Of a DNA stretch of 64,000 nucleotides, positions 12,101-63,900 are shown in pieces (the first letter of the stretch is position 1; each line of letters begins with the position of its first letter). The notes beneath the pieces are model-generated. The model saw only the letters and a program-made list of their open reading frames with translations, did not search any database and had not been told where the DNA came from. This DNA comes from Diphasiastrum complanatum. Its lineage: Eukaryota > Streptophyta > Lycopodiopsida > Lycopodiales > Lycopodiaceae. The stretch spans positions 38,683,866-38,747,865 of the forward strand of contig CM055096.1 in NCBI GenBank assembly GCA_029204225.1. The letters are read 5' to 3'. The translations under genes were made by a program, and so were the position numbers.

Positions 12101-15100
12101 CCATGAGCTCATACACCAGTCCAAGTGTGGACCCCTTGCTGTCAGCCATGCGGAGCACAATGTAGAGTGGTCGAAAGAGTCCTGACAACGTCTGTGCATC
12201 CCTCCAGAACTGGTCTCCCCTCATCGTGGAAGAAAAGTGCTCCCCATCCTCTGTGCACTCAAACGTACAGGCACGCCAAAGATCGTTGGCAACCATCTGT
12301 AGAAGCTGTGCCCTGCACCTGATCAGACGGTCGATGACCACCAAGTCGAAAGCAAAGCATGTGGGGGCTGGCTTCTTGATGTCCAACTGGCTGAACACTC
12401 GGAACATGGCTAGAACACGCCTCTTCTTGGTGACAAAAGTTACCACAAAGAGGGCCTCACGGACGATGGTTCTAACCCAAGGAAGTGCACCTATATCCCC
12501 CATGAGGAGGTCTATGTCATGCGCTGCACAGGGGGTATGGACGATGTGAGGGAACTCAGCCTCTAGGAGGACACCCATCTGAACGCAGTTGGTGGCATTG
12601 TTCGTCACCACCGTAACGACATGTTGGGGGCCTATGGACAAGATGGAAGACTTGATGACATCGAACATGAACTTTGCAGATATAACTCTCCCCCCCTGCT
12701 GCAATCCACGGCCAAAATTGTGTGCCCATGCAGCTGGAGACCAAGATGTTGAGGATCGGCCTCCTCCTGACATCAGTCCAGCCATCGAACATGATGTTGC
12801 AACCGTATCTGGCCCAGTGGCGGCGTAAAGGCTCCATCTCTCTAGACAAGGACTCGACCCTATCTCTCAGCATGTGTGGGCGGACAACCTCTGAACTAGG
12901 CACTCTCCAGCTAGGGCTGACAGACTATGCAAGGCAAAATGCCCTTCTGAAGGGCTCAGAGTCTCATAAATCAAACTAGCCACGGCCTGTGTAGCCTCTC
13001 TGTCCATGTGCGGCTGATGTGCACCGCGAATGGTCTGCTGCCTAAGAGCTCTCCCTGCTGGGCGACGGGTAGTGGACCTCCAGCATGGTGCACCAACCGT
13101 GACGGGAATGGATGATGATGGGACAGGCTGGGCACTAGTGGATGCATCGGCTGTAGACGTGGAATGGGGAGAGTGGGATGCACCGGCAGGGATGGGTGCA
13201 GCAGCATAAGTGGGATGCACTGCAGGGGCAACATTTGGCACGGGATATGAAAACTGCTGGCTAGGGACATCATCCGGATGGGAAGGGAGGGAGGAAGGGA
13301 TCTCCTCAACATCCTCGAAGGCCTCATCACTAGCATCCTGGGCCTGCTCGAGAGTACATGAGAAAATCGTAAACTGGGGGCGTGCGAGCAACAGGACGTG
13401 GTGGTGGAACCGCAGTGGCAACTGGCGGACGCGAGGGGACGAGTTCCACCGGAATGGGTGCAAATGGGGGTGCGTGTGGTGGAATTGTCTGAGAGGGATG
13501 AGGGGCAGTGGAACGGGACGAGGATGCACTCCCTCTCCTTGTGCGTGCCAGCCAAGCAGGTAGCAACTTGGGGTCAGCCACATAAGAAGTGGTGCAAAAC
13601 CGGAGAACACCCTCCGAAATGGTGTTCTCCCCCGCCACAGGACGTGGCCCGTAGGTGTCCAATAGTCGCTGCCTGTTGGGGACGGACATGCTGCCACAAG
13701 GGGCAGCGTTTATGGTGGCACCATTTTTGGCACGTGCACCGAGCAGGTGGCCTTTAAGGCGAGTAAGGGACGCAGCGAATTCGACTAGGCAATACTGGCA
13801 ACGCACGACCTTACGACCGGTCCTGTCGATTTTGTCGGCAACCCGCCTGACAACGTCCACCTTGTCCCACAGATCGGCAAGGTCGGACTGCACCATTGTG
13901 ATGGAGAAAACTAGGGAAAAAATGCAGAGGAAGCTAAAGCATATACACAAATTTTTCCATTCCGAAATAGTAACCCACCTCGGATAGAGAACTGTTCACT
14001 ATCTTCTTATATTTCCTAGTTGGAAAAAAAACAGCAGGGTTTAGTGTTGGAGAGACGTTGAAAATGGGCGAAGGCAGGGCGACGCAAATCAGATGCAAGG
14101 CAGCGAAGGCAAGGCAGAAAAAACAGCAACGAGGGCACCAAAAATTTTGGGAGAGAAGAAGTGAGGGGGCAGGTAGATTTAGGTTAAAAAAATAAAAAAA
14201 ATATTAAATATTAAAAAATATTATTATACTTGTGGTATTGCGGTACCAATATGGTCCCGCGGTACCCAGTACCGCGGGACTTGTGATATATATCATAGGT
14301 CCCGCGGTACTGGGTACCGCAGTACCATAATATAATATTTTTTTTTATTATTTAATATTTTTAATCATAGTACCCCATGGTACCACCATTATGGTACCGC
14401 CGGTACCATAATGGTGGTACCGCCATTATGGTGTCGCCCTCAAACCCGCAGTACCAGGGCGGCACCATAATAATAATACTTTTTATTATTATTATTTTTT
14501 AATTAAAAACCCCTTTTACAAGGGTATTATAGGGTAAAAAATTTTGAAAAAAAACGTGTCAGGGTTTAGAAAAAAAGGAGGACTGTACAGGGGGCACTGT
14601 GGGGGAGCAGACCTTGGAGTCAATGGGAGTGCAGCATGTGGGGGAGCAGCAAATCCGGACAGGTACACCGTCACATGGGCACTGTGGGGGAGCAGAGCAC
14701 GGACCCAATCAGAGTGCAGCATGTGGTGGAGCAATACATGGGGCAGGTACAGTAGCACATGGGCACTATGGGGGAGCAGGCCATGGGGCCAATGGGAGTG
14801 CAGCACGTGGGGAGCAACAAATGGGGACAAGTACAAGGGCACATGGAGGGATCATCAACAACTACACATGGGGGAACAGGTTGTGGGGTTAAATAGGCAC
14901 TCACGAGGCTGTGAGAGCCAGTGAGAGGCTGTGAGAGAGAGGCTGTGAGAGGCAGTGAGAGCCAGTTCGAGAAACAGGGTGTCGTGAGATGGCAGAGCAC
15001 ATACCACCAAGGCCTGAGGGCAAAGCCAGGAGGAAGCTCGAGGAAGATGTCCGAAGGCACAACGAAAGGCATCGGAAGCAAGAGGCAGACATTGCAGAGA

Positions 15101-18100: not shown

Positions 18101-20442
18101 TGAGAGGCATGTGGTTTAGGGCATTACGAAAAAACTTAACACTGACAGAAAAACAAACTAGCAATTACTGAAAAAGATAAAGGCCAATTACATTACTATA
18201 CTGCTTACCTCTCTGGCTGCAAGATGGGCAGCTGCAAGAACTGTCCAATCCAGTCCATGAGCTCATATACCAGTCCAAGTGTCGACCCCTCGCTGTCAGC
18301 CATGCGGAGCACAATGTAGAGTGGTCGAAGCAGTCCTGACAATGTCTATGCATCCCTCCAGAACTGGTCTCCCCTCACCGTGGAAGAAAAGTGCTCCCCA
18401 TCCTCAGTGTGCTGAAACGTACTGGCACGCCAAAGATCACTAGCAACCATCTGTAGAAGTTGCGCCCTACACCTGATCAGACGGTCGATGACCACCAAGT
18501 CGAATGCAAAGCGTGTGGGGGCTGGCTTACGGAGGTCCAGATGGCTGAACACCCGGAACATGGCAAGAAAACACCTCTTTCTGGTGACGAAAGTCACCAG
18601 GAAGAGGGCCTCACGGACGATGGCTCTAACCCAGGAAAGTGCACTTATGTCCCCCATCAGAAGGTCTATACCGTGCGCTGCACAGGGGGTATGAACAATG
18701 TGAGGGAACTCGGCCTCTAGAAATACACCCATCTGAATGCAGTTCGTGGCATTGTCCGTCACCACCGTGACGACATGTTGTGCGCCTATGGACAGGATGG
18801 AAGACCTGATGACATCAAACATGAACTCTGCTGATATGACTCTCCCCCCCCTGCTACAATCCACGGCCCTCAAAAACTGTGTGCCCATGCAGCTGGAGAC
18901 CAATATGTTGAGGATCGGCCTCCTCCTAATATCAGTCCAGCCATCGGACATGATGCTGCAACTGTAAGTGGCCCAGTGGCGACGTAGAGGCTCCATCTCT
19001 CTAGACAAGGACTCGACCCTATCCCTCAGCATGTGTGTGCGGACAACCTCTGAACTAAGGACTCTCCAGCTAGGGCTAACAGACTATGCAAGGCGGAAGG
19101 CCCTTCTGAAGGGCTCAGAGTCGGTGATGGCAAATGGAAGGTTCAGCTCATAAATCAGACTGGCCACGGCCTGTGTAGCCTCTCTGTCCATGTGCGGCTG
19201 ATGCGCGCCGCGAATGCTCTGCTGCCTAAGAACTCTCCCAGCTTGGCGACGGGTAGCGGACCTCCAGCATGGTGCACCAAACGTGACGGGAATGGATGAT
19301 GACACAACAGGCTGGGCGCTAGTAGATGCATCGGCTGTAGGGAATGGGGAGAGTGGGATGCACTGGCAGGGATGGGTGCAGCAGCATACTGGTGGAGGGG
19401 GAACATCTGGCATGGGATACGGAAACTGCTGGCTAGGGAGGTCATCCAGATGGGAAGGGAGGGAGGAAGGGACCTCCTCAACATCCTGGAAGGCATCGTC
19501 ACTAGCATCCTAGACCTGCTCCTGCTCGGGCTGTGGAGAGTCCATGAGAAAGTCGTAAACTGGGGGAGTGCGAGCAACAGTGGGTGGTGGTGGAACCGCA
19601 GTGGCAATTGGCGGACGAGATGGGACGGGATCCACCGGAATGGGTGCAGATGGAGATGCGTCTAGAGGAACTGTCTGAGGGGGGTGAGAGACAAAGGGAT
19701 TGGACGAGGATGCACTCCCTCTCCTCGTGCGTGCCAGCCAAGCAGGCAGCAACTCGGGGTCAACCACGTAAGGCGCGGTGCAAAACCGGAGAACACCCTC
19801 CGAAATGGTGTTCTCCCCCGCCACAAGACGTGGCCCGTAGGTGTCCAGAAGTTGCTGTCTGACAGGAACGGACATGCTGGTACAGGGGGCAGCATTCAGT
19901 GTGCCACCATTTTTGGCACGTGCGCCGAGTAGGTGGCCTTTAAGGCGAGTGAGGGTGGCACTGAACTCAACCAGGCAATATCGACAGCGCACAATCTTTG
20001 CACCGGACTTGTTGGACTTGTCGGGAACCCGCCTGACAATGTCCACCTCGCCCCACAGATCGGCAAGGTTGGAATGCACCATTTCTATAGAGGGAACTGG
20101 GGCAAAAAGGCAGAGATGATGGTGAGTGCGATAGGTGGCGGAAAGCTGGAAAATCCACAACAAGGCCGAAATAGCAATAGCGGGGGCGGAAGCGATGAGT
20201 GCAACGCGAAGACAGTACATGGAGAGGAGTGCGCACAACACGGACAACAGAGAGGGCGTGGACAACAGCGCGATGGGCAGGGAGAGAGATGAAGCGAGGG
20301 GGGGGATTAGGTTAAAATATATATATTAAAATATTAAATATTAAAAAATATTAGATATTGTGGTACCGCGGATCAGTATGGATCCGCGGTACCACACTGG
20401 ATCCGCGGTACCGGGATCCGCGGATCCTGGTACCGCTGGATC

Positions 20443-33501: not shown

Positions 33502-34300
33502 GTGGATTCCCAAGGATAAGCCAGTCCTATCATAGACAAGCTTGATGGATCCAATTACCATCTGTGAAAATTTAAAATGAAAACTATACTAATGGCAAAA
33601 GAATTGTTCGACATTGTTACAAGTGCTGAAGGAAAACCCGAAGCGGACAACGCGACAATCGCTAGATGGAAGCTGAAGGATGGAAAAGCTTTCGCACTGA
33701 TCATCCTCAACATCATGGATACCCAGATCGGCCATGTATCCGAGGCTCAGACATCAAAAGAAGTCTGGGACATCTTGAGCACACTATACGAAGTGCGAGA
33801 TATAGCTTCTAAGCTACATCTCAAGAAGAAATTCTACTCCCTCAAGATGACAAATGGTGATTCTTTGCAGAATCACATTAATCAATTCAAAAACCTGCTG
33901 AGACAAATGGCCATTATCGGATCTATCATAGACGATCAAGACGCAGTGAAGCAACTGCTTACAAGCTTTCCAAGTTCTTACGATAGCTGGGTGATGATCA
34001 TCACGACTCATCCAGAATTGACTCTTTCAAGAGTCATTACTATGTTGTTGCAGGAAGACACACGAAGGAACGAAGCCTTGAGTTTCTCAGCTGATTCTCA
34101 CGCCTTGCACGCCAACAAGAGCACGACAAAGCAGAAGAAGAAGAAAGGCCCGAAGCAATCAAAGCCAGACCAGAAACCAACTCAGCACAAGGAACAGTCG
34201 AATCCGTAGACAAAGAAGAAGTTGTTCTGCAGATACTACAAACAAAACAACCACGAAATTGAAGACTGTCGAATACTTCAAGCAAAGAACAATAGCAAGG
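33502..34300 (+). pseudogene. Copia gag with zinc knuckle, broken
   Basis: The old start reads GTG in place of ATG (VDSQG-stop-ASPIIDKLD). The open core begins at 33577 and runs MKTILMAKELFDIVTSAEGK through LRQMAIIGSIIDDQDAVKQL to a Lys-rich end, stopping at TAG 34207, probably a mutated CAG. The following zinc knuckle reads FCRYYKQNNHEIEDC, with its second Cys replaced by Tyr. The product would be the particle protein of the same copia family as the fragment at 2152-2747. Confidence 0.88.
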
Positions 34301-34379
34301 GACAGTTTAATCAAGTGGCAAATGCAGCTGTAGAAGCTCCACAGCCTATTCAAGAAGCAGATCATGATGTCTTCATGAC

Positions 34380-35540
34380 CAACCATCAAGAAGCATCTGG
34401 AAACAAGTTTTGGTTCCTGGATTCCAGAGCCACTCAGCACATGACTAGCCTCATTGGCTGTTTCGAGTCCTATACACCTTACAGTACCCAAAAGTTCATT
34501 CACCTTGGTGACAATAGCACACAAGCTATCAAAGGTGAAGGCACTATAAGATTAAGCTTTGCAAATGATTAATATAAGCTACTCTCTAAAAACTTGTATG
34601 TACCAAATTTATCTACGAATTTGCTCTCTATAAGCAGAATCACAGATTTAGGACATAGAGTAGAGTTCGAATGTGATCAGTGTAAAGTAGTTGATGGAGG
34701 AGCCCTTTTTTTCCTCCCAGAGTTTTTGTCTTCGACTGGCAAGATCCTAGCACTCGAAAAGAGACATGGATACTTGTATAAATTAAGTCATTGCTTTTCT
34801 GCCTCTAGTCAGGCTCTCAGTACTTCAATTCATACAAATAAAGGTTTACTTTGGCATTATAGACTTAGTCATTTAACTCATGCGGCTGTACAACGAATGT
34901 CTAGACAATCTATTGTTCTTAATCTCGAGTATCCTCGCGAAAAAGTCGGGTTACCTGTCTATCAAGACTGTTTAGTTGATAAACAGGCTAGGAAACCATT
35001 TAAGTCAAGCCATCAACATATTGCTAGAGGATTGCTAGATGTTGTACATTCAAATGTTTGTGGCCCAATGAAAAATCCTTTGTTGAAGGATACCAAGTAT
35101 TTTATAACCTTTATTGACAAATTTTCCAGAAGGACGATGGTATATTTCATAAAGAAAAAATTAGAAGCTTTCAACTGCTTCAGAATCTTCAAGGAGTGTG
35201 CAGAAAAGGAGACTGAAAGGACGATCAAGGCCCTAAGGTCAGACAACGGTGGAGAATACATCTCTGTCGAGTTTAAGGAGCACTGTCAAGGCCAAGACAT
35301 TGAGCAACAATTTATCACTCCTTACAGTCCTCAGTCTAATGGCTTAGCTGAGAGGAAGAACCGTATTTTGGTTGAATCTGCTAAGTGTATGCTATTGCAT
35401 GCATCGTTGCCCAAGAGATTTTGGGCTAAAGCTGTCTCCACTACAGCTTACCTCCAGAACAGATGTTCGACCAAGGCCCTCGCAGACATGACACCCTACG
35501 AGGTGTGGACAGGCTCTAAGCCTTCTTTGAAAACCTAAGC
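34380..35540 (+). pseudogene. Copia protease and integrase, broken
   Basis: The protease site reads FLDSRATQHMTS in place of DSGA. After a stop at 34570 the frame from 34594 holds the pre-integrase zinc region (LLWHYRLSHLTHAAVQRM) and the integrase core. In the core the first catalytic Asp is Asn (VVHSNVCGPM), while the second (RSDNGGEY) and the Glu (NGLAERKNR) remain. The frame ends at KPSLKT, and the C-terminal part continues in another frame (VFGCIAYMQIPKD). With both active sites altered, the polyprotein cannot have worked in this form. Confidence 0.88.
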
Positions 35541-40091: not shown

Positions 40092-40643
40092 CTAGCTTGG
40101 TAAATCTAGCATAGATCTATCTATAACTCCAAGAGCCAATCTCAATTTTATAAATGGATCTTTAGGCAATGCCTTGGTGAGTATATCAGCAATGCAATCT
40201 GATGATGAAACATGAATAAGCCTGATCTCCTTTGCTTGCACTTTCTCCCTCATGAAATGATGTGCAATCTCAATGCGCTTTGTTCGAGCATGGAAGACTG
40301 GATTGTTTGCAAGTTGTTGAGCTGCTTGATTATCACAATATATGCATGGAATGTCTTCATCCTTGATCACATGTAGCTCCTCCAAAAGCCTTTTAAGCCA
40401 AAGAACCTCCTTTGTTGTTGTCATAGCTTTATATTTGGATTCTGTTGATGAAAGAGAGATGGTATCTTGCTTTTTGGAAAGCCAAGATATAACTCCTCCA
40501 CATAAGAATGTAGCAAATGCACTTATGGATCTTCTATCCATCTTGTCACCTACAAAAATTGAGTCCGAATATGCTCTCAAACAAATATTAGTCCTTTCAT
40601 AAACTATGCCAAAGTCTTTTGTAGCCGAGATGTACCTTAACAC
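40092..40643 (-). pseudogene. Copia RNase H fragment
   Basis: A 183-codon open frame contains the whole RNase H domain. It starts LRYISATKDFGIVYE, then AYSDSIFVGDKMDRRSISAF, SLSSTESKYKAMTTTKEVLW, YCDNQAAQQLANNPVFHART and IADILTKALPKDPFIKLRLA. It would degrade the RNA of the RNA-DNA hybrid during reverse transcription. The frame is open but isolated: reverse transcriptase is cut away at about 40650, where another element abuts. Confidence 0.88.
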
Positions 40644-40677
40644 CCTTTTTCAACTATTTTGCTTGTTATCTCTCTAT

Positions 40678-40922
40678 CTTTCTCTCTCTAACTCGTGTTG
40701 AAGCTAATGCTTATACACTGATATCTTGTACTTTTGCTAATTATTGATTCATTGCTATCATATTCAGTTGCTTAGCATGCTAGATTGTGGTTAAGCCATT
40801 TCTTCTAAACTAGATCTTGCTAATCAATCTAGAATCAGGTTACTGTGCTAATCACAAAGCTTGATTAGATCCATCATACTTGTGGACATTCCCCACACGT
40901 GTGAAATCTAGAAAGTTTGTCA
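40678..40922 (+). repeat. Left copy of a 245-bp direct repeat (LTR with adjoining sequence)
   Basis: The sequence ttctctctctaactcgtgtt ... ttttgtca matches 42538-42781 with few differences. It ends with CA directly before a primer-binding site at 40923. The sub-part from TG at about 40744 could be a very short LTR, or the full repeat could be the remainder of a longer one. A cacacgtgtg palindrome lies at 40894. Confidence 0.75.
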
Positions 40923-40934
40923 TGGTATCAGAGC
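40923..40934 (+). promoter_or_regulatory. Copia primer-binding site
   Basis: tggtatcagagc directly follows the CA end of the left repeat. Confidence 0.8.
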
Positions 40935-41689
40935 CAAATTAAACTTTGCATGCTAACATATCTGATTGTACAAAAAATGAGAGCTAAATCAAGCAAAAAA
41001 GCAGTTTTGCATTTTTTCTCACCTTTCTCTGAAGTGTATTTGGATCAAATCGAATTGGAACTGAATTTTCAGAGCTGAAATGTGGTAGTACGGAATTTTG
41101 GAATTTCGCACGTGTGAAAATCAAAGATTTTTAGTCTCTTTGTTCTCCTTGCTTATAGATCCAAACATAGCAGTGTTATAGCTTGATGGAAAGCTTATGA
41201 TCTTTTCTTTTCATAGAAATTGAAACCAAATCAATTTGATGTGTCTAGCAAGAGTTATAAGCTCTTAAAGAGGATAGGGATAGGTCCAAAATCCGAGTGA
41301 CAACATTTTGATTTGATTCAATCTTGCTTTGTTCTGAATCCATTGTTTTGAGCATCCTACACAAGAAACTGAAGATAAGACTGAGTTTGGAGTAATGAAC
41401 ACCTTTTGAGCATTCTGAGAGTCAATTGTGTTTTCTTTTGAAGCATTTCACACGTGCCAAAAGTAGGCTTCAAACTAGCCAAAGTGTCTCAATCCACTTT
41501 GTGTGTCTGATCTAGATAACTTGTCTTGTGGAATATTTGAGATTCATCTCAAATACAATTGCAAGTGTTTCACATAGGAAGGTAGTACATCCTTGAAAAT
41601 ACCTATAGTGAAAGAAAGCAGCAACTTTAAGTCTGATTGGAACAAGCTCAAACATATTGCAGTCCAATAACTAAGAAGTCTTCATTAAA

Positions 41690-42606
41690 ATGGCATCTTA
41701 GGGATGATATCTTCTAGAAGCCAGTGAAAGACTAAACACTTCTAATTACTCAATTTGGAAGTTCAGAATGGAGTCTATTTTAATACTCCAGGATGTTATG
41801 GATATTGTGCTTGGTGTTGAGGAGGAGCCTCAAGTACAGGCTGAAATTCTTAAGTATAAGAATGCTCTACATTCATTAAGATGAATGTATCTAATGAAAT
41901 TCTGAGAGAGATAGGATCTTGCACTACAGCCAAAGAAGCTTGGGATGCACTAAAGTCCATCTATGAAGCAAAGAATACTTCTAGAATACTCACTCTTAGG
42001 AATCAGATTTTCCAAAGTTTCCAAAGAAGTGAAGAGAGTGCATCTAACTATGTTCTGAGAGTTAAAGATTTACATAGAGAGCTTTGTTGTGTTGGTGTTA
42101 CTATTAACCAAGATGAGCTAGTTCAAGTCATCCTGAATGGCTTGAGAGATGACTATGATAATCTTGTTCAATCCTTTGCTATTAAGGAGGAGTTGCCTAA
42201 TCTAGAAACTCTCCAAGGAATTCTTATTTCTGAAAAATCTAGACAAAGCTATAAAGTCTCCAGGATGAACAAACTCGAGCATGGTAGAAGTGACAAAGCC
42301 CTCTTTGTCAAAGACAAGCATAAAGGAAGGAGTAAGAACCAGTTCTCTCAAGCATCCAACAAAGACAAAGCCAAATATCGAGACAAAGATGGTGAAGAGG
42401 ATGATACATCTCATCCTTCTAACTCAAAGACCAAGAAGAAAAAAGTGAAGTGTTTCTTCTGTGGCAAGAAGGGGAACTATGCCTCTAATTGCTTTAAGAA
42501 GAAAAACCAACTCAAGCAAGCTAATCTCTCCAAAGATTTTCTCTCTCTAACTCGTGTTGAAGCTAATGCTTATACACTGATATCTTGTACTTTTGCTAAT
42601 TATTGA
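41690..42606 (+). pseudogene. Copia gag with altered zinc knuckle
   Basis: A start at 41690 gives MAS-stop and then YLLEASERLNTSNYSIWKFR and QDVMDIVLGVEEEPQ. After a frameshift near 41880 a long frame runs MNVSNEILREIGSCTTAKEA, NTSRILTLRNQIFQSFQRSE and LHRELCCVGVTINQDELVQ. It ends in a Lys-rich tail with a zinc knuckle CFFCGKKGNYASNC, whose His is Asn. The gag is closely related to that at 48483-49225. It runs straight into the right direct repeat, so protease, integrase and RT are all missing. Confidence 0.88.
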
Positions 42607-46468: not shown

Positions 46469-47972
46469 TTACAATATTAAGGACTTGGAGATCAAAACCA
46501 AGATTTGATCTATGTCTTTCAAAGTCAACTTCTTAGCTAGAGGCTTGGTGAGAAAATCTGCATAACAATTTGAAGTTGATACATGCTCAAGGAGAATCTC
46601 ACCATCCATAACGTTTTCTCTTACATAGTGGTGTGCTACCTCTATGTGTTTACTGCTTGCATGGAAGATTGGATTGCTTACAAGATATTGGGCCGAGATG
46701 CTATCACATTTGATGCAAGGTATTTCCTCCTCTTGAATAATCCCGAGCTCCACTAGTAACCTTTTGATCCAAATGACTTCCTTTGTCGTGATAGTCAAAG
46801 CCTTGTACTCGGCTTCACATGAGGATAAGGAGATGATGTCTTGCTTCTTAGATTGCCAAGAGACAAGATTACCTCCCAAAAATATTGTGTAAGCACTTTT
46901 GGACTTTGTATCCATCTTATCACTTGCAAAATCCGAATCTGAAAGGCAACAAGGCTTAAATAATGTCTTTTAAAACAAAGTCCATAGTCTTGTAAAACAA
47001 AGTCTGTAGATGCAACATATCTCAAGATCCTCTCCCCCTTTTCCCAATCATGGATCTTTGGATTTCGCATGCTTTGACTAAGCTTATGCACACTAAAACT
47101 AAGATTAGCCCTAGTGATAGTGAGCCATATTAAAGAGCCTATTAGACTTCTAAAAAGTGTGATGTCCTCAAAGGATGCTTCATCACAAGTTTTAGTGTGT
47201 TTAACATTAGACTCCATAGGAGTATCTATGCTTTTACAATCTTGCATTCTAAACTTTTTAAGCATAGATCTTACATAACTTTCTTGAGAAATGAAAGCTA
47301 AGTCATTAGAGATCTTAATATCTAGTCCAAGTACATGATGTAAAAATCCAAGATCTTGCATTTTGAATTCCTTTCCTAAGGAGATCTTGGTATCAACAAG
47401 TAAATCCATGTTGCTTCCACATAATAGAATGTCATCAACATAAATAAGCAACATGATTACATCATTACCAACATGTTTAAGATATAATGATGGATTATAT
47501 GAACTAATCTTGAAACCAATAGAAAGAAGATAAGTGTTCAACCTCTCATACCAAGCCCTTGGAGCTTGTTTCAAGCCATAAAGGCTTTTCGAAAGTAAGC
47601 ATACTTTTGATCCTTTGCCATTCACAACAAAACCTAGAAATTGATGCATATATATTTCTTCTTCTAAGTAACCATTTAAGAAAGCTGTGTAAACATCAAG
47701 TTGAAGCATTTTCCAATCATAAAAACACCAAATAGTAATGAGGAATCTAATGGTACCATCTTTGCTATGGGAGAAACGGTTTCTTCATAATCTATGCCTT
47801 TGATTTGGGCATAGCCTTTAGCACAAAGCCTTGCTTTTAACTTATTGATTGATCCATCATTATTGAGCTTGATTCTATAGACCCACTTGCATCCAATGAC
47901 ATGCTTGTCATTAGGTGGATCTACAAGTTGCCAAGTCTCATTTTTCATCAAAGCTTCATACTCGGCCTCCAT
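46469..47972 (-). pseudogene. Copia reverse transcriptase and RNase H
   Basis: RT starts at about 48045 (SSVEEAL, then MEAEYEALMKNETWQLVDPP), shifts frame near 47700 and continues MLQLDVYTAFLNGYLEEEIY and SLYGLKQAPRAWYERLNTYL. It has an intact YVDD (LLIYVDDILLCGSN) and goes on to SLIWLTITRANLSFSVHKLS. After another shift near 46930 RNase H follows (DTKSKSAYTIFLGGNLVSWQ, SLSSCEAEYKALTITTKEVI, KHIEVAHHYVRENVMDGEIL). Catalytic motifs are kept, so decay is fairly recent. Two frameshifts break the frame. Confidence 0.88.
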
Positions 47973-48024
47973 AGCTTTGATCCAATCCTTTGATTAAAGA
48001 GCTTCCTCCACACTTGATGGTCCT

Positions 48025-48525
48025 TCAATGGAAGTGTGAAAAGCAAGTACCATCTTTAAAATCTACTTGTAAACCATCATCATTGAGTTGGCCTACACTT
48101 ATTAGATTTTTAGTCAAACTAGGAACATATAGCACATCATTGAGATCAAGCTTATCTAAAGATATGCTTCCTATGCCTTCTATCATACATTCCTCATCAT
48201 TTGCTGTATAGATACATCTTCTAGATCCTTTGTATGGTACAAGATTACAAAAAGAGTTTTTATCACTACTCATGTGGGATGAGGCACCACTATCTAGCCA
48301 CCATACATTAGAATGTTTGAAAGAGGAAGATGAGAAGTTATACATCATAAGTGAATATTCTTTGTCACAAGGAGATTCATCTTCACAAGTGATGTTGGCT
48401 TGCTTTTTCCTTTTGTAGCATTGGGAGGCAAAATGCCCGTTTTTGCCACATGAGAAACAAGTAACCTTGTACTTGTTCTTCTTCACATTGGATGAGCTTG
48501 GTTCCTCCTCGGATATCTTCTCCAT
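48025..48525 (-). pseudogene. Copia zinc knuckle and aspartic protease
   Basis: The frame holds a complete knuckle CFSCGKNGHFASQC, the protease active site WWLDSGASSHMS, and the flap and later region (LNDVLYVPSLTKNLISVGQL). It stops at GTCFSHF, where normally the pre-integrase domain would continue, and passes into RT start sequence within about 30 bases. This is the breakpoint of the integrase deletion. Confidence 0.88.
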
Positions 48526-49225
48526 TGCTTTTGTGTTGTCCTTGGATCTCTTGTCATTCTTCTTGTCTTTTCTCTTCTCATTGGTTTGGTGAAGAGTGCT
48601 TGATCACTTCCTCCATCTTTGAGAGACAATCTCTCAAATCTTGCCACTCGAGTTTGATGCCTATGCTCCTCGGATATCAAGACTCCTTGTAAGGCTTCTA
48701 AAGAGGGTAAGTCCTCTTTAATTGCATAAGATTGAACAATGGTATCAAAATCCTCACTTAATCCATTCAAAATAACTTGAATAATTTCTTTGGATTTGAT
48801 AGAATCATCTATGCAACAAAGATCTTTATGGAGATCCTTGACTCTAGAAACATAGGATGAAGCACTTTCATCCTTTTTTTGAAAACTTTGAAAAATCATA
48901 TTTCTAAGAGTAAGGACTCTTGAAGTATTCTTAGACTCATAAATGGATTGAAGAGTACTCCATGCATCTTGAGCATTAACACAAGATCTAATCTCTCTTA
49001 GAACTTCATTAGAGACATTTAGCTTCAAGACATAAAGAGCAATATGTGCTCTTTTCTTGAATTTGGGAATTTCTTGAGGATTAGTAGGCTCCTCCTCATT
49101 CCCATTCACTATATCTATTAGATCTTGAAGTAAAGAATGGATTCTATCCTAACTTTCCATGTACCATAATTTGTAGAAGTGAGTCTCTCACTTTGTTCTA
49201 ATAGATAAGATCCCATTGAAGTCAT
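48483..49225 (-). pseudogene. Copia gag
   Basis: From ATG 49225 the frame reads MTSMGSYLLEQSERLTSTNY and GTWKVRI, then shifts by one base near 49140 into LLQDLIDIVNGNEEEPTNPQ. The open core follows (LNVSNEVLREIRSCVNAQDA, NTSRVLTLRNMIFQSFQKKD, LHKDLCCIDDSIKSKEIIQV). Another shift near 48575 separates it from the knuckle. It is the same family as the gag at 41690-42606. Confidence 0.88.
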
Positions 49226-52956: not shown

Positions 52957-53129
<173 letters not shown>

Positions 53130-54565: not shown

Positions 54566-57500
54566 TCATTGGAATGTGTGCATCGGGGCAAGCAATCCCT
54601 CATAGATGGGTTTATCTTCCTCAATGGCCAAGCAGTGGTGCCCTTCCTTACTCGCAGCCTGAGTCATGGTTCCAACTCCTGCAAAGGCATCCACAACCCC
54701 ATCCCCCACCATAGTGAAGCGCTCAAGGATGTACCTACAGACAATGAAATTGTCAGCATGCTTGACAATAGCCATAAAAGCCATACTGTGCACTGAAGCA
54801 AGAGGTAAGCACTATACCTCATAGTATCTGGAGACCTCTCATGGCCACCATGCACGGCTTTTTCTCCATACGTCGTGACAGAAGAGCGATTGTCTTCCCA
54901 AAGCAATGTGCCTTTTCTACGGACATCCCCCAAGGTCACAAGAGGATGGGTCTCTTCAAAGTATGGAGGGCACGACAGATCAGCTATGTTGTAAGTGAGT
55001 ATCAAAAGGGTGGTCACCTGTCAAGACAAAACATCGGTTTAGTAAGCTTATACTAACTAACCATGTGTACAGTTTATCCTTTAATATACTACCTATTTTG
55101 TACCTCTTCAAGTGGCTCCAATATGTAATAACCATCTTCCATTTGCAAAGTCCAATGATGATGCAAACTGTACCCATAGCTGATGGCAAGTCCGTCTATC
55201 TCCAGAAAGTGCATGGGATTACAGCAAAACACAACCCAAGTACCCCTCTCTATCAAGGCATGTCTTTGGCAAGCACAAAGCACAAAGTCACACAAGCTGA
55301 ATGATATTATTCCAGTGTGGCGTGGTAGTGGGATCGCCCATGTGCTTGACCCCAAGACCGGTGGGTAACTGGGCCCACCATAGGGATGCATAATGTGCCT
55401 CGACAAAGGAATGTAGTGCCAAAGAAGCCCTACATTTCTTTTTTTTGGCCATCCTAGTTATATCGGCTCACATGCAACACACAAGTCCTGGTTCAACAAC
55501 CTTCTTGGCTGCACAATGAAATGAAGTGAAAGATCAGCATGAGTTGGAAAGACAAATATATAATGCTAAATAAAAAAATAGTTTAGAACTTATATTTACC
55601 TCTCTGGACTGGTGGTTCTTCCAACGGCTCTTCGGTGTAATCAACTATAGTACCGCTACTGTCGGACACCAGGTCAAGTGTCCTCTTTGACCGAAGTTCT
55701 TTGTGATGTAATTGTTTCTCTTTCTTGGCCTTAGAGGTGGATCCAACCACGGGTTCCTCGGATACTTGACTATCCCTTCTCTTCCACTTTGCAAAAAGAT
55801 CTTTCTCGCAGACAGTTATCATGCTAGGTGGGTAATCCAACCACCAAGGGCACGCTTCCCTCTCCCAATCGGAAATACTTACGTCAAGCCATGCCAGTGG
55901 AAACATCGATTGTGGCCCATGAGGGTCCAGCCATGATGGAATCTGTTCTGGCGGCGAGGGCAAGGAGCTGGCCTCTTCAAGAGCAATAAACCATCTGCAA
56001 AACGAACAAACATAAACACAGTTAGAGGAGCACCAACATAGCATGTTAAGTACATGACGTAAACGAAGAAAGTGTATACCTATATATGACCCTCTTCGTC
56101 GATAGATGTATTTCAGGCTGGTTCTCAGCAACAACGCTATTCTTCATCTTATCATGGATATATGCAAATCCTTGAGCGAAGTGCCTCAATCGCTGCACTC
56201 TAAAATGTGCTGCAAATGCCTCTGGCACGATGAAAGCAATCCCATCTTGTGTGGCCAAAGTGGACATGAGCAATTTGGCAACCTCATACAATTGACACCA
56301 GTATGTTTCTTTCATCATCCACCTCCTAAAACCCTTGTTATATGGAGGGATATCCCAACTTTCTCTCTCGTTCTTATCCCCTATCATCAACAAAAGTATT
56401 TTCCTCTTTCTGCAAGAAAGGAAAAGTAAATTACATACCTTGAACCAAAGCAAACCTAAATATATGTAACCACTAGGCCATACAAAGACATGTCGTCACT
56501 TACTTAGCAGGGCTGATGGCAGATGCACAAAAGTAACCAAGCTTGTCCTCCGTGACTAATTTCCCCTTGCTGCTCCAGTCGATCCCATACAAGACAGAAA
56601 AAAATTCTTGTCCATTTTTTGGATCAACCACACCTGCTATCCTGGCCACTTTGCTTCTGACATAATTTTCAGCTTGCTACATTCACAAATTCAACAATTC
56701 ATCAATGTTATGAGAACGACTAAAACATGACACAGGTCCCATATGAACTATCTAGTGGATATGCACTTTACCCATATAGCCTCTTGTTTCTTTAAAGCAA
56801 ACTCATCATCTGTGATGTTGTCCTTGTCGATATTCGAAATGGTCTTTTCCAAATGCTGGGAGAATTCATGCTAGATCACCAACAACAACAAGATGATCAG
56901 GGGGGGCATAAATTAAGCTGAACACAAATACGAATTACAGCTCATGCATAATGGCAAAATATTCCACAAAATCGTGAACGTTTATACAAACACAGATACC
57001 TTGTACAAAAGTTGGCCGATGATTACCAACGGGACAACACACCATGAAGGATTTGTGACCAGCTTCTCTCTTGCCATCTGACCCATAATCGTAATTCTGT
57101 CCTCCATGGACACATGACCCAGCATCGTCTCCTTATCCGCTATGCCAAACTTTTGTAACATAAATACGTCATGGGACAGGGTGTGTGGAACATGCACACG
57201 CGTCAACCTATACACAAATACGTGCTAACATCAGTAAATCATCAAAGTCTATGCACAAATATGCGGAGGGTCAGTGATATTTACCTGTTCATGATATCCA
57301 AGGCAAGAAGCAGTTCCCCTTCTTGGTTGGGAGCCATATCGACGAAACTGCAATCAACACGTACATGCATGGCACGTGCGTGCAAAAGGACTAGCCAGAA
57401 CATGTGAAAAGACACGGTTAAAATGCATTGTTGAAAATTGCTTGGCAATGCAAAAGAGACAATACACTTAAGCACGGGCTATCAAATGCATACCCTCTCT

Positions 57501-58238
57501 GATTTTTGCCAACCATGCCTAAAGTCGATGGTTACCATCCTAGACCCAGAATTTATTCCCAGAAAGGTGTGACCAGTCATGAAATGACTGCAACTCCATC
57601 TCAAACTCCTTGTTGAAAGACCTCCATAAAGGCCCCCAATCTTCCTGGTCAAAGTCATTTACATGCAAAGGGGGTTCACCAAATTTCTGCATAGAAACTA
57701 AAAAATTTCCTAGCTCTCTAACATACTCATATTGCTCAAAATGTGCTGCCAAGTTATTGGAACTACCGGTAGTGGCACACACTAACGGGTTTCGGACAAG
57801 CCTACATAATGGTATCAGTGGCGGAGGTGTGCCCTTAAGTACTCTAAAGCCAGACACGACATCTTGCAAGATACGTTTCTCTATCACTTTACCAAATGTA
57901 AATGCCATTGATTTTTTGGAACTTCCCGAGCTAGCAGCTTGATTGGGGTTCCCATTGTTAGTAGCTGCAACATCTACCGAATTACGATTCAACATAGTAA
58001 TTGCCATAAAACCAAAGCACTAGTTGGTGAGATATTAGACAAGGCAAAACATTTCATAGAATATAAAGCACAACTAAATACTTGCCGCAGTCCCCATCTC
58101 ATGATCAGTCCCTTCCACAACTTCTCGTATGCTTTGATGTTCATTGCTCTCTTCGTGCTGATTTATACCCTCACTGACTTGGGATGTCGGATAGACATCA
58201 TGACAACTCGATTGCAGGTTATAACGACTACAAGACAT
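54566..58238 (-). pseudogene. ParB-like and permuted DNA amino-methyltransferase-like gene, 11 exons
   Basis: The exons are 58086-58238, 57494-58019, 57285-57390, 57000-57207, 56772-56870, 56504-56676, 56080-56409, 55600-55994, 55104-55508, 54818-55017 and 54566-54785. All borders fit splice rules (intron 1 has a GC donor) and phases match except for a one-base shift in exon 9. About 938 codons. The N-terminal half resembles the ParB/Srx fold: IPLCRLVRNPLV, MQKFGEPPLHV, FWV-stop-DGNHRL-stop-AW, HVRVDCSFVDMAPNQEGELL. The C-terminal half resembles beta-class N4/N6 DNA methyltransferases: WWAQLPTGLGVKHMGDP (possible motif IV), RGTWVVFCCNP, SCPPYFEETHP, and last VVDAFAGVGTMTQAA (SAM-binding motif I). 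Stops at 57540 and 57519 (TAG) and 55468 (TGA) plus the shift make it a young pseudogene. Substrate and function are unknown. Confidence 0.6.
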
Positions 58239-59264
58239 GTTCCTGGAAACACATATATTCTCACATCAGTGCACATGAGCATTAGTATTTCGAAAGAAAA
58301 CTGGTTATATTTCGGAAAAAAAAGCAGAGTGTCAAAGAAGTAGAGCAAGCTATCAAAGTAGAGTGTCAAAGAAGAAGAGCATTCTAAAGAAGAAGAGCAA
58401 GCTATCAAAGCAAGTAATATCAAAACGGTAGTACAACTTTCAGATGACGATAGAGAAAATAATTTGGCGAATGAAGCTATCCAGATGGACTACAACCAAG
58501 AAAGGAAGATTTTTTGTTAGTAAACCCTAAAAATGAGAAGCAAAAAGATGCAAACATATGTAAGGATACGCAGTCAGGTCCGTTGCCAAAAGATAATCTG
58601 CCAACACAAGTTCCAGTGCCTTAGGAGGGCTATGCTTTCTTCGAACCTCTCAAAATAATTTATGATATAATGAAACATATTACAGTTCTTTAAGAAGGAG
58701 GGATTTCAAGTCTTGGCTCAGAAGCTCAAGGTACGGTCCGAGCGACTGTTACGTACGGTGATGTGATAGGGGGGGGGGGAGCTTGAGCCTACCTCTTTCG
58801 ATTAACTTTATTCAATTATTCTTAGGATGGGAGGTTACCGGGGGTAACTCCATATTTGTCAATTCATTTTTGGTTTACATGACTTCCGGCACATAAAACA
58901 GCTATCAAAGCTATGCTTGTCAATCGGGTAGGTAATTTTTCTGATTACGGGATAGCCGGCCATTGCTTTCCTATCTTGCAAACAGTAAGTAGACTTATCT
59001 ACTATTTATGCTCGTGCTAGTGCCTTTTCCAAACCCAATCATTATTTCATTTTTTGTGACATGAGATTCTATGCCATAACTGTTATTTGTGTTTTAGCTC
59101 CTACTGGTGCGGTTAGAAAATCAGCACAGATAGGATTGCATACTCAGTCACCCGATGCAGGAGGGTCCCACTCAGTATATGTTGCTGCTTCGGCTCCCCA
59201 GTAAAGCAATTGCCCATTTTTTTTTCCTTCATAAAAAGCTCCCTTCGAAAAAAAATAAGCAGGT
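58239..59264. other. Spacer between divergent genes, left part
   Basis: No domain is recognised. It contains short internal duplications of agagtgtcaaagaag-like words at 58325-58410 and a run of ten G at about 58770. It probably includes the promoter of the minus-strand gene. Confidence 0.4.
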
Positions 59265-59615
59265 CTGTGGAGCCATTGGAGGCTGGCCGACGGCGGCCAG
59301 CCTCCAATGGCTCCACAGAGTTGCTTTACCTGACAAAATGGATAACTTATTGGAGCACCATTATATTGAGCTTTTAAAAAAGTTCAGAGGAGGGATGCAT
59401 AATCTAGTGCATCCCTCCTTTGAACTTTGGACCAGATCAACCTCACATCTTGTTCTCCTTGTACTGCATTTAGTTTTGCGACACGTGACTACAGATATGA
59501 CTACTGCTTGGACTGGAGTATAAAGAATATTGCATTCTTTTACATAAGGTGAACTTTCAAAAAAAAAAAAAAAGATCTGTGGAGCCATTGGAGGCTAGCC
59601 TCCAATGGCTCCACA
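59265..59615. repeat. Cluster of three palindromes
   Basis: The first, 59265-59318, has perfect 24-base arms and a 6-base loop. The second, 59380-59427, has 20-base arms with one mismatch and an 8-base loop. The third, 59578-59615, is a perfect 38-base palindrome without loop and repeats the outer 19 bases of the first (tgtggagccattggaggct). An open frame crossing the region is a by-product. Confidence 0.9.
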
Positions 59616-60290
59616 TATCTGTATTTTTTTTTTTATAAAGATGCAATACACGTTGAAAAGCAGATCTGTCATTTTCAAAAAACATTCTGTCATTTTCTGT
59701 TTTTGTTTTTTGTTGTAGGTCCGCAGTCCTCCAGGGGCATCAAAAGCTGTAAGTACATGTGCATTGGAGGTTTCAGGTACATAGGTTTTTTGGGGAGAAG
59801 CAATTTAGAGCTGGTGACAACAACAATATTTTTGGTGTAGGTGGACTGTCGCTTCAAATGTGGCTTGTGTTTTGACTCTTTGTATTTTTTTTAGTTCAGA
59901 TTTACTACATTCTGTCATTTTCGAAACATTCATCAACTTACATATTCTGTAATTTTTTTATACATAATCAACTTACCTAGTGAGTAGTGCATGCAATTTG
60001 TATAGCACGTCACGAATGGTAAATCAGTTACACCTTACTTAGTACCATAGTCCTCAGAGTTAAAATCAAAATAAAATCATTTCGAGATAGAAAGAAATTG
60101 AAACTACCGTTAATGACACGAGAAAGTTTGTTAGAAAGAAGCAAACATTACGGCATACAAATTGCATGTCCTAATACCACAGAGGTTGAATATTTTAAGA
60201 GTAAGGATGCATTAAATCTTAGTATGGTGTAAACTATCGATGTCAAATTCATGATTACACTTATAATAGTTTAAGTTTACTCATCTGCAG
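59616..60290. other. Spacer before the plus-strand transposase
   Basis: T-rich and without recognised coding. It may hold the leader or a first intron of the plus-strand gene. Confidence 0.4.
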
Positions 60291-63200
60291 ATGGATGCAA
60301 TGGTCTCGTTCGAGTCAAACATTATTAACCCTCTGAAACTGACCTTCCGAGATGGAAAGATTGTAATTAAAAAAAACTATTTGCAAAGGCACGTGGGTCC
60401 TCGAGATATCGTGTCTGGAATTTCAGCGATCATCTACATGGAAGATGCCTACACGTTGAGAACTGACCTAACTCCTACTTGTGATGTAGAGGGGGAAGAT
60501 GTATACATCCTTGACGAGTGTGTTTCGAAGGAGTGCGTGGTAACCTTGGAACAGAAGAAATACACAGTCAGCTAGTTCCAAGCGGTTCATAAGAGCACTA
60601 TAGAGGTAATCATGGGAGGGATAGTAAGTGGCCTTCTAAGAAAATTGGTAGTGCAAAACAACCACACTGAGAATGTCACGGAGCTGCCAAGAACATACAA
60701 TGGTGACGTGATATATGAGTTCCCACCCACATACGGTCAGGTTCAGTCTATGGATGCGATGGACCATAAGTTTGATGGGCATATATGGACAAAGCCTGTC
60801 ACTTCAAACATCCAGTTTCTAGGGGTGGTGAGAGTTTCATATTGCGGGGGTATGTTCCAGTGTATCCGCCAGACATGCCCAAATCAAATAAACACAAAAA
60901 AGGCAAACTCCCTTCTTTTCAAGGGTACCCTCAATCGAAGATGTCTGCTTGGAGGATCGTCGAGTTCTATTGGTACACTTGCATGTGCATTCTGTAGGCA
61001 ACCTGTGGTGCATGTTGAAACTTGTGAATGCTATGTTTATTATGTGATGCCATCTGATTTTACTTGCACCAGATTGTTAATCCATTTGGGCACGCATGCC
61101 CACCCGACCGTAGCTGGCGTTTCAAAATATATTGTTGAAAAGGTGAGGAAATTAGTGCGTGATGCTATTGCAGCAAATATCACTGCAGCCCCACGTACAA
61201 TTCAATTGGACATAACAAAACAAATTTTGATGAGCTCAGTCATGGGTGATGGTGAAAAGGACGATGTTAAAGTCAGCTCGATGGAGCTCAAAAATTTGCT
61301 AGAGGAGATGGCACCTTTGGTGAAGAATCGAAGGTCAGACCGCATTGTGCCAAAATTGTTGTTGGAAAAAGCACACAATACCCTCCTATATTGTATGATT
61401 TGTTTGCTTGATTGTTTATAGTTGATCTCAAATGTAGAATTCATAAACTGGTTAGCAATGAAGGGCTAGCAGCACACATGCGAGAGACTGTGTAGATGCA
61501 ATTTTGCTCTTGAAACGCCAATGTAGATACGATTTTTTCCAGTTGAGCAAATTTCTGGGGCAGGGCTCTCTGAAAAAAAGATGCTATGTTTTCAAGATGT
61601 CCTCACAAGGACCAGCCTCTGGACTTGATCTTGTCAATCGCATGAGACGTACGGGTGAAGGAGATCTGAGAAGGGCATGGATCCATTGGGACCACACATG
61701 ATGAGTGAATGCTTGGACCACGATGGCATGCCATGTCTACGACCCCAGGCAAGAAATATGACACGAATTTTAGTTGACTTCAAGCTTAAGAAATATCTTA
61801 ATGGTAAAGTGTACAAAATAATACTTCATGTGATGTGCAATATTCGGGAGCTTCTTACAATTACAACATGCGAGATGAAAGAGGAAGACACTGAGTCCCA
61901 GACACTATTTTGGGAGATGTTGAATTCTACGATGATGCGACATGGGCACTCTTCGGCTGACTTTCACGGGTTCATGACAGATGAAGCACAAGCAAACTGG
62001 CGCGCTATTCGAAAGGTCTTCAATGGTGGTCCGGACAATGAGTTGGTGGGCAGAGAACGATCATGTCTATTTCATTGGGCACAAAGTCTAGAGATCCACA
62101 CAACCAAGTATGTGCATAAAGAGCACCAACAAAAACACAAGGAACTGTGTGAGCAGTGGCGAGTTTCAAGGACCAAAGAAGAGGCAACGCTACAATACAG
62201 AGTCATTCGACAATGGTGGAGGACATGTAAGGTTAGCGACCATGACCTGGCGTACATGGACAGTTGGATGGGCTGGTGGAACATCATGATAGCTCACTGG
62301 GGTGAATGCATGACACAGGTAAGACACGAGAACACGACGCATGACTTGTTATAACTTTTTTGTATGCCTACACGTATGTATAGATCATTTAGTACATGTT
62401 TGTGGTGTGTAGGTGGTTGATGCGATTGAGGATGCGAACACGCCAAGAACTAACTTGTCCGAATCCAAGCATGGCAGTTGGCTTGCGAATGAAGGTGGAC
62501 GCACAAAGATATCGTTGTATGATGCGTGCGTCTCTGATCTTGCAAATGCTCTTTTGCAAAGTGCCAAGCAACAAGCCTATTTATAGGGAAGACATCTGGG
62601 TGAAGGTCCTAGCTTGCAAAGCTTGATAAACCGTAGTGCACTAAGGGCCACACAAGCGCCAAGAACTGTAGCAACGACTATGAACAATGTGGTCACAGGC
62701 ATGCCCATGCACTTCCTTAAGACATTGTTATCAGGAGACCGCGAAACAGTGCAACGCAAGCGTGGGCCTGTTGAGGTGGTCAACATCGAAGACAATGCTA
62801 CTCATAGACCTGAATACATTCATGTAAACATGGATCGAACTGCACGTGGGAGACGCAAGAATTGGATTTCCAAAATGCTAATGTTAATGAAACAATAGGG
62901 GAAGTGTGTCTGGTTGTGGAATGTGAAATTCACGATACCCAATGGGCTATACGCTGCACAAAAGTTGGCAACAATGTGAAATGTCTGGGTTGGATCTCAA
63001 AAAAGGGCATGTGTAGTCGAATTGTTTCCAACGCACAGGGCAACCCTACTCCATGTTTCTTTAAAAGCAGGAAACACCCAGGTGGAGATTGTCGCCAGTT
63101 CATGTGGTTTTAACCTGATGAATGCAGACACACGTGGGATCCCAGTAGATGTATATAGAAAAGACCTTCAAAAATTCTAAGCATTTGGCCTGTGGCAACT

Positions 63201-63900
63201 GGAACCAACCTCTCTCTATCAAAAAAAGAGGCCCTAAACCGTGTAGGTGAGAATTATAAAAATTATACATGTTGGAGCATTATGTTTGTCTTGGCAAAAT
63301 GGTCTTCAACGCTGATTTTTGTTGAGCTTTTAATAATTACTCTTGATATTTGTTTACAGGTTTCACACTAGAAACAAGAGGAGCATCACTCCCAGCAAGA
63401 TTCCTTGCCGAATAAACATCGCCAGAAGGAAGGGGTGTCGATCAATGGCAACCTAGAATGCAGCACGCCACTGTCAACCTCGGGGTATCATGGACAACAC
63501 AACAAACCAAGCTACTCCGATAACTGCGAACCCGAGCAATGATCACCGCCGATACAAATACCACCCAAGAATTTCAAAAAAGGCGCTTGAGAGGATTGAA
63601 AGTCACTGGCTTTGAATGCGCGAGTAGTAAACACACATGTTTAAACCATGAGATTTTTCATATCGTTAGTTTTGGAGATAATGGCCAGTCAGAGTATGTG
63701 GTCGAAATTAGAAAAAATCCAATTTGCTCATGTCCAAATTTTTAGTCGCGAGCAGTGGAGGAAAAATCATATCTCGCATGCAAGCACATATATTTCATAT
63801 TCTTAACAGTTTTAGGGCTCGATCAGAATTGTAACATGTTCGTACACCAGCCACAATTGTCTGAAGCAAAATTGTCTCATGCTCTGAGCAGAGAACGTGT
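60291..63900 (+). pseudogene. MULE-like transposase with SWIM zinc finger
   Basis: The N-terminal frame 60291-61421 is open except for TAG at 60573. The core follows in pieces: WTTMACHVYDPRQ near 61710, RELLTITTCEMKEEDTESQT, FHGFMTDEAQANWRAIRKVF and RERSCLFHWAQSLEIH at 61850-62110. An intron (62319-62412) keeps frame into VVDAIEDANTPRTN and SESKHGSWL, with a TAG at 62584 (YL-stop-GRHLGEGP). A Cys/His-rich part (KSRKHPGGDCRQFMWF) ends near 63113. The last piece holds a SWIM finger, ICSCPNF-stop-(S..)-YLACKHIYFIF. The arrangement fits RNase H-fold transposases of the MULE group. The catalytic triad was not assigned with certainty. Several stops and frame changes show it is dead. The element's right end lies outside the window or was not found. 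Confidence 0.65.

Follow-up and report, generated by a model that had tools for sequence, protein, structure and literature searches.

A decayed, intron-rich gene with a methyltransferase-like C-terminus in Diphasiastrum complanatum is probably the accessory gene of a DNA transposon

We analysed a stretch of 64,000 nucleotides from the lycopod Diphasiastrum complanatum (assembly GCA_029204225.1, contig CM055096.1, positions 38,683,866 to 38,747,865 of the forward strand; C5:38683866-38747865 in our contig numbering), which is referred to below as the window. The minus strand of the window carries an 11-exon gene, from 58238 to 54566, the product of which would join a ParB/Srx-like N-terminal half to a C-terminal half resembling DNA amino-methyltransferases. 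We propose that this gene is the accessory gene of a DNA transposon. Our confidence in this reading is about 0.8; it was lowered slightly for lack of identified element ends. The locus itself is probably a dead copy of such a transposon, the length of which was probably more than 10 kb.

A first-pass annotation, made from the letters of the window, had described a spliced minus-strand gene with matching intron phases and one frameshift. This was borne out: all ten introns of the 11-exon model begin with GT and end with AG, the phases are consistent, and a single frameshift lies near 55293 in exon 9. The long reading frame that it reported also stands, while its count of about 938 codons gives way to a model of about 907 residues. 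A start of exon 3 at 57347 was discarded since it breaks the phase; a start at 57390 restores agreement. The three in-frame stops that had been claimed were all located in the sequence (Table 1), and the motifs named at that time, FWV*DGNHRL*AW (asterisks denote stops), LALDIMNR and VVDAFAGVGTMTQAA, are all present in the translation. The 11-exon reading is far beyond chance: the first 721 codons contain three stops, where 300 random reorderings of these bases gave 43.4 on average and never fewer than 27, and the other two frames over these codons contain 27 and 57 stops.

As judged from profile matches, the C-terminus of the predicted protein resembles a permuted (beta-class) amino-methyltransferase, in agreement with the first-pass annotation. 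The last 185 residues match the Pfam family N6_N4_Mtase (PF01555) with 27.4 bits against a cut-off of 26.7 (E=3.9e-6), and the divergent paralogue L044, with its exons joined, scores 31.1 bits. The alignment spans positions 165-217 of the 221 in the profile, roughly the C-terminal quarter, which corresponds to motif X and the S-adenosylmethionine (SAM)-binding loop. Phage methyltransferase families match the same part of the protein (PHROG 3008, E=3.9e-8), and the solved enzyme 2zie matches it weakly (E=0.0037).

The window gene belongs to a large repeat family. The assembly searched comprises 1.74 Gb in 5,176 contigs, with large contigs running at least to number 23 (C1 101.6 Mb, C23 42.5 Mb); the searches list the best candidates, and the copy and pair counts given here are thus lower bounds. 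With a query of 1,935 bases, at least 13 other genomic places align over 750 bases or more, at 91-94% identity. Several of these near copies are without internal stretches, and they include near-identical duplicates (two pairs at 99.7-99.8%, a third at 98.8%). In some near copies the DGNHR region is free of stops (L015, and L013/L021, which are one locus), and the window copy is therefore a damaged representative of a family in which this region was formerly open. The near subfamily decays neutrally. Pooled over 14 loci, with alignments of fewer than 300 columns left out, exons differ from the window copy by 6.8%, introns by 5.3% and the three codon positions by 7.2, 6.5 and 6.8%, and of 52 indels in exons, 5 have a length divisible by three.

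A different pattern is seen between subfamilies. Divergent relatives of the gene were found at 37-47% identity (107 matches), and three of ten divergent loci (L032, L044 and L047) match from the N-terminal half through the SAM-loop exon, the remaining ones being cut short or matched in part. The methyltransferase exon gave at least 150 scored matches among 385 candidates in the genome. We estimated the ratio of nonsynonymous to synonymous substitution rates (dN/dS) for exon 9 in 23 sequences, which formed 246 pairs of more than 80 codons; 35 pairs with dS between 0.05 and 1.5 were kept, these pairs being non-independent and dS above 1 being near saturation. The ratio was 0.46-1.72 in the 24 pairs with dS below 0.25, and 0.23-0.33 in all 11 pairs with dS above 0.4. 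Exon 9 has thus been under purifying selection between subfamilies. Such a contrast is the pattern expected if active elements need the gene and dead copies lose it.

Altogether, N6/N4-methyltransferase-like loci number well over a hundred in this genome. On contig C15, at 30.3-31.9 Mb, there is a cluster of 12 matches to the methyltransferase exon, with 39-42% identity to the query and 11 of them without stops. A search with PF01555 across the assembly gave at least 150 scored places among 1,605 candidates, all over the cut-off and the best with 60.8 bits. Positions were compared after a number of these places, for the most part duplicates on small contigs, and part of the partner rows had been set aside; none of the places compared lay within 15 kb of the rows of the partner gene described below, and two lay 2.2 kb from an exon-9 locus, the comparison taking in 7 of the 150 exon-9 loci. 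They may represent a further amplified population of N6/N4 methyltransferases in this genome.

The second gene of interest lies on the plus strand of the window, at about 60.3-63.9 kb, head-to-head with the accessory gene. We infer that this partner gene is the transposase of the element. Its putative C-terminal zinc finger resembles Pfam SWIM (E=0.0021) with 18.0 bits, just below the cut-off of 19.6, and its family is large, with at least 110 matches in the genome. Presumably, the SWIM-bearing Mutator-like transposases share with it both the C-terminal SWIM-like finger and a C/H-rich N-terminus. Unlike theirs, the catalytic region of the window's partner matches no Pfam model of Mutator-like elements (MULE).

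Could the two genes be neighbours in the window by accident? The head-to-head pairing is beyond chance in two separate counts, for which the chance expectations assume a uniform spread of loci. In the first, 28 places matching the N-terminal half, drawn from the 107 matches, were compared with 48 partner rows: 12 had a partner locus no more than 25 kb away, and 7 of these 12 were head-to-head, where 0.04 was expected. In the second, 78 of the 110 partner matches were compared with all 150 matches to the methyltransferase exon. Thirteen partner loci had such a match within 15 kb, where 0.2 pairs were expected, and all 13 pairs were head-to-head; at 25 kb there were 16 partner loci with a methyltransferase-exon neighbour, 14 of them head-to-head.

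Further evidence comes from one end of the repeat. Three copies, L020, L022 and L027, have one terminus in common, and no fewer than 13 places in the genome (duplicates counted) retain almost the whole of its last 162 bp. L027 is flanked by unshared sequence; L020 and L022 are each embedded in a copy of another repeat, in opposite orientations. Both genes would lie between common ends. The insertion points of L020 and L022 in that other repeat seem to be about 35-40 bp apart, an observation that also takes in L026 (3954-4999), hinting at a target preference. Immediately to the left of the repeat in the window, at 52960-53128, there is a long CT and CA microsatellite. Around the window copy, neither long terminal repeats nor an inverted-repeat structure was found, and both were rejected for it.

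Several observations weigh against the proposal of a transposon with such an accessory gene. No terminal inverted repeats were found for the element, and the shared terminus has no inverted partner; nor could a target-site duplication be shown. The catalytic region of the partner has no match in Pfam, including the MULE core PF10551, the window's partner is absent from the 59 Pfam MULE matches of the genome, and comparison of its core with the PDB returned ribosomal proteins alone, at E=0.53. The pairing is incomplete as well: no listed partner was nearby for 16 of the 28 N-terminal-half loci and 65 of the 78 partner loci, and 5 of the 12 N-terminal-half pairs and 2 of the 16 exon pairs at 25 kb are not head-to-head. 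Some of the 13 pairs look duplicated (two loci on C4, two on C18, and C1314 with C2), so that about ten are independent. On C13, the matches to the N-terminal half and to the methyltransferase exon lie on opposite strands, and this locus is therefore rearranged or composite. As regards the domains, PF02195 (ParB_N) matches nowhere in the genome, though it does so in 11 of 14 control genomes, and the sole weak Pfam match of the N-terminal half is to Peptidase_M74 and stays under the cut-off: the window copy has E=0.042, and among 8 family members a single one reaches E=0.0065, the only Pfam match under E=0.01 in that set. Finally, the canonical motif IV of amino-methyltransferases, [DNS]PP[YFW], is present at the corresponding position in none of 29 copies, this position being assigned by order and spacing only.

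For the N-terminal half, the ParB/Srx assignment of the first-pass annotation survives as a motif pattern. By eye, the pattern consists of FIVWDGNHRVQAW, followed by a HVRVDCSF strand and an EGELxLALHxINR helix, and it is kept in divergent members. Statistical similarity did not follow: no ParB model was matched in any of 8 family members in the Pfam search, and a profile search of the PDB gave no ParB. Thus, of the two domains for which profile searches had been suggested, N6_N4_Mtase came out over its cut-off, and ParB did not, either with PF02195 or with solved ParB domains. When profiles were compared with those of four ParB domains of solved structure, WDGNHR fell in the expected register with AGERRF, at a probability of 0.1%; the score of 11.6 lies below those of the controls, the best of 60 column-shuffled profiles reaching 22.0 and the reversed one 14.9. 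AlphaFold2 on exon 2 alone gave a mean predicted local distance difference test (pLDDT) score of 42.6. A ParB domain in this half is plausible from the motif, judged by eye, and from its register.

The motif-IV position deserves closer attention. The first-pass annotation had pointed to a PP-containing motif, CPPYF in exon 10, which by order is not at the place of motif IV; that place falls in exon 9, where the window copy reads AQLPTGLG. We tallied this position in 29 of 31 matching loci, two not covering the motif (35 loci were searched, four without a match). DFPT was found in 17 copies, QLPT in 4, which form the window copy's own subfamily, and other variants in 8; an aromatic fourth residue was found in none. 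The same variant recurs across subfamilies and is therefore not simply a product of decay. The lack of a canonical motif in every copy speaks against ordinary amino-methyltransferase chemistry, and catalysis by the accessory protein is uncertain. Because the position is non-canonical in all 29 copies, deposition of N6-methyladenine (6mA) or N4-methylcytosine (4mC) is uncertain too.

How would such a protein serve a transposon? In the mechanism that we propose, the transposon carried two divergent genes: a plus-strand transposase-like gene with a SWIM-like finger and the minus-strand accessory gene. In the accessory protein, a ParB/Srx-like module at the N-terminus would be followed by a conserved central part and, at the C-terminus, by a domain resembling beta-class amino-methyltransferases. 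Its N-terminal half, with a putative ParB fold, would bind the element's own DNA, and its C-terminal half would use SAM to mark that DNA. Alternatively, if the altered motif IV abolished catalysis, the protein would bind DNA as a non-catalytic cofactor. Either mode would help the element to escape silencing or to assemble a transposition complex.

The conserved absence of D-P-P-Y makes us lean slightly towards a non-catalytic role. In this case the C-terminal domain would be a pseudo-methyltransferase: it would bind SAM, DNA or both but catalyse nothing, serving transposition as a DNA-binding cofactor; we regard this as quite possible, at a little under even odds. The non-canonical stretch A-D-F-P-T-S-L is conserved in most copies and the G-x-G loop is retained. 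METTL14 offers a precedent, having lost its catalytic motif while still being essential. Against it stands that motif IV was placed by position, and that exon 9 on its own matched no Pfam methylase in any of 20 members and nothing in the PDB profile search, its structure prediction having a pLDDT of 41.7. The other possibility, to which we give somewhat less than an even chance, is that intact relatives are active N6-adenine or N4-cytosine DNA methyltransferases acting on their own transposon, where 6mA or 4mC would protect the element from silencing or license transposition. The match of the SAM loop and C-terminal part to PF01555 and the purifying selection on exon 9 are both in its favour, and a fusion of ParB with an adenine methylase is known in Bacillus cereus (PMC5512222). 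The motif-IV tally, with neither a canonical motif nor an aromatic fourth residue in any copy and a variant shared across subfamilies, argues against it.

Two explanations dispense with the transposon. The locus could belong to a host gene family that grew by segmental duplication, with the transposase-like gene as a chance or host neighbour. Some copies do look like parts of duplications (a pair on C22 and a pair on C4), and the lack of inverted repeats would fit; the uniformly head-to-head arrangement of the pairs within 15 kb, the neutral decay of near copies and a shared terminus bordered by differing or oppositely oriented flanks make this explanation improbable. The capture of a single bacterial or phage gene by the plant, as the first-pass annotation had suggested, would account for two domains of prokaryotic type, and is very improbable for a large, intron-rich, multi-copy family paired head-to-head with a transposase-like gene beyond chance, tblastn against 50,697 phage records having given no match, pattern-based scans of IMG/VR no relative, and GTDB genomes one short match (L072, query residues 84-111) that was judged spurious.

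The accessory gene of a transposon, as we read the window gene, has described counterparts. The Ectocarpus element Sola1-1_Ec32, a Sola-1 transposon of 21.5 kb, is reported to encode a protein of 1,104 residues with ParB-like and N4/N6 methyltransferase domains, its gene and that of the transposase lying on opposite strands, and similar transposon proteins of green and red algae are cited there (PMC12477816). Compared by description only, the two cases would share both domain types and a gene opposite the transposase strand of a giant DNA transposon, the partner in the window being a transposase by inference; they differ in that Ectocarpus is a brown alga, its transposase is of the Sola-1 type and its protein has 1,104 residues against about 907 here. 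Bce_0392 of Bacillus cereus, again set beside our protein by description only, fuses a ParB-like domain to an adenine methylase, but is prokaryotic (PMC5512222). The bdelloid rotifer N4CMT is also a bacterial-type amino-methyltransferase in a eukaryote; it belongs to the host, includes a chromodomain and targets transposons for silencing, and is not carried by them (PMC8885841). The first-pass annotation knew of no spliced plant gene of this kind. The kind itself is already described in algal transposons, and no ParB-methyltransferase transposon protein of a land plant was found in our literature search, subscription papers being mostly outside its reach. What appears to be new is the occurrence in a land plant, the partner of SWIM type and the reading D-F-P-T in place of the expected D-P-P-Y, and the window locus also adds evidence of selection.

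Table 1. Positions in the window of the accessory gene, its partner and the left edge of the repeat
Feature	Position	Strand	Basis
Left repeat edge in the window copy	53838		L020, L022 and L027 extend about 400-490 bp further to a common terminus
Exon 1, start codon at 58238	58082..58238	-	GT donor, phase; alignments of several paralogues begin at residue 1
Exon 2, N-terminal ParB-like part, F-W-V-*-D-G-N-H-R-L-*-A-W	57494..57973	-	Model; paralogues keep a W-D-G-N-H-R-like motif
Two TAG stops in frame, either side of DGNHR	57519..57542 (57542-57540, 57521-57519)	-	Sequence
Exon 3, corrected acceptor, HVRVDCSFVDMAPNQEGELLLALDIMNR	57285..57390	-	Model; kept in paralogues
Exon 4, conserved LTRVHVPHTLSHDVFMLQKFG	57000..57207	-	Model; paralogue comparison
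Exon 5	56772..56870	-	Model
Exon 6	56504..56676	-	Model
Exon 7, conserved central region	56080..56409	-	Model; paralogue comparison
Exon 8	55600..55994	-	Model; paralogue comparison
Exon 9, putative first half of methyltransferase; A-Q-L-P-T-G-L-G; stop 55470-55468, frameshift	55104..55508	-	Model
Exon 10	54818..55017	-	Model
Exon 11, predicted SAM-binding loop D-A-F-A-G-V-G-T, end of frame	54566..54734	-	PF01555, PHROG 3008
Partner, N-terminal part, C/H-rich, one stop 60573-60575	60270..61418	+	Translation; without Pfam match
Partner, region like a DDE transposase core, MTDEAQANWRAI...CLFHW	61659..62351	+	By eye
Partner, SWIM-like zinc finger CSC...CKH, one stop inside	63524..63900	+	Pfam SWIM

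Between the two divergent genes, at 59248-59634, three short inverted repeats surround a 'TCTGTGGAGCCATTGGAGGCT' unit; they are possibly small nested repeats. Elsewhere in the window, two hAT-like copies were recognised by eye in GC-rich DNA on the minus strand (12081-13995 and 18349-20325), each with a BED-like finger and a transposase-like region, as were Copia-type fragments at 3681-4484, 33568-35535, 40095-42603 and 46472-49148. Another Copia-type fragment, in L033 (1357-4531), adjoins the partner gene on its right and may have split off the right end of the element there.

It is tempting to speculate further, although we consider the following rather unlikely as a whole, that a superfamily of land-plant transposons has long carried a DNA-binding, methyltransferase-derived protein in which motif IV was replaced by a conserved A-D-F-P-T-S-L, and which acts by a new DNA chemistry or as a non-catalytic sensor of SAM or DNA to protect the element from silencing. 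Transposons with their own DNA-modifying or modification-derived proteins offer a direct handle on how elements evade or exploit epigenetic control by the host. The pairing known from algae is extended here to a land plant with a different transposase-like partner, in many copies and with selection across subfamilies, which makes it testable. In automated annotation, many loci of this type could end up labelled as plant DNA methyltransferases. The locus described here may shed light on the ways in which mobile elements tag or protect their own DNA.

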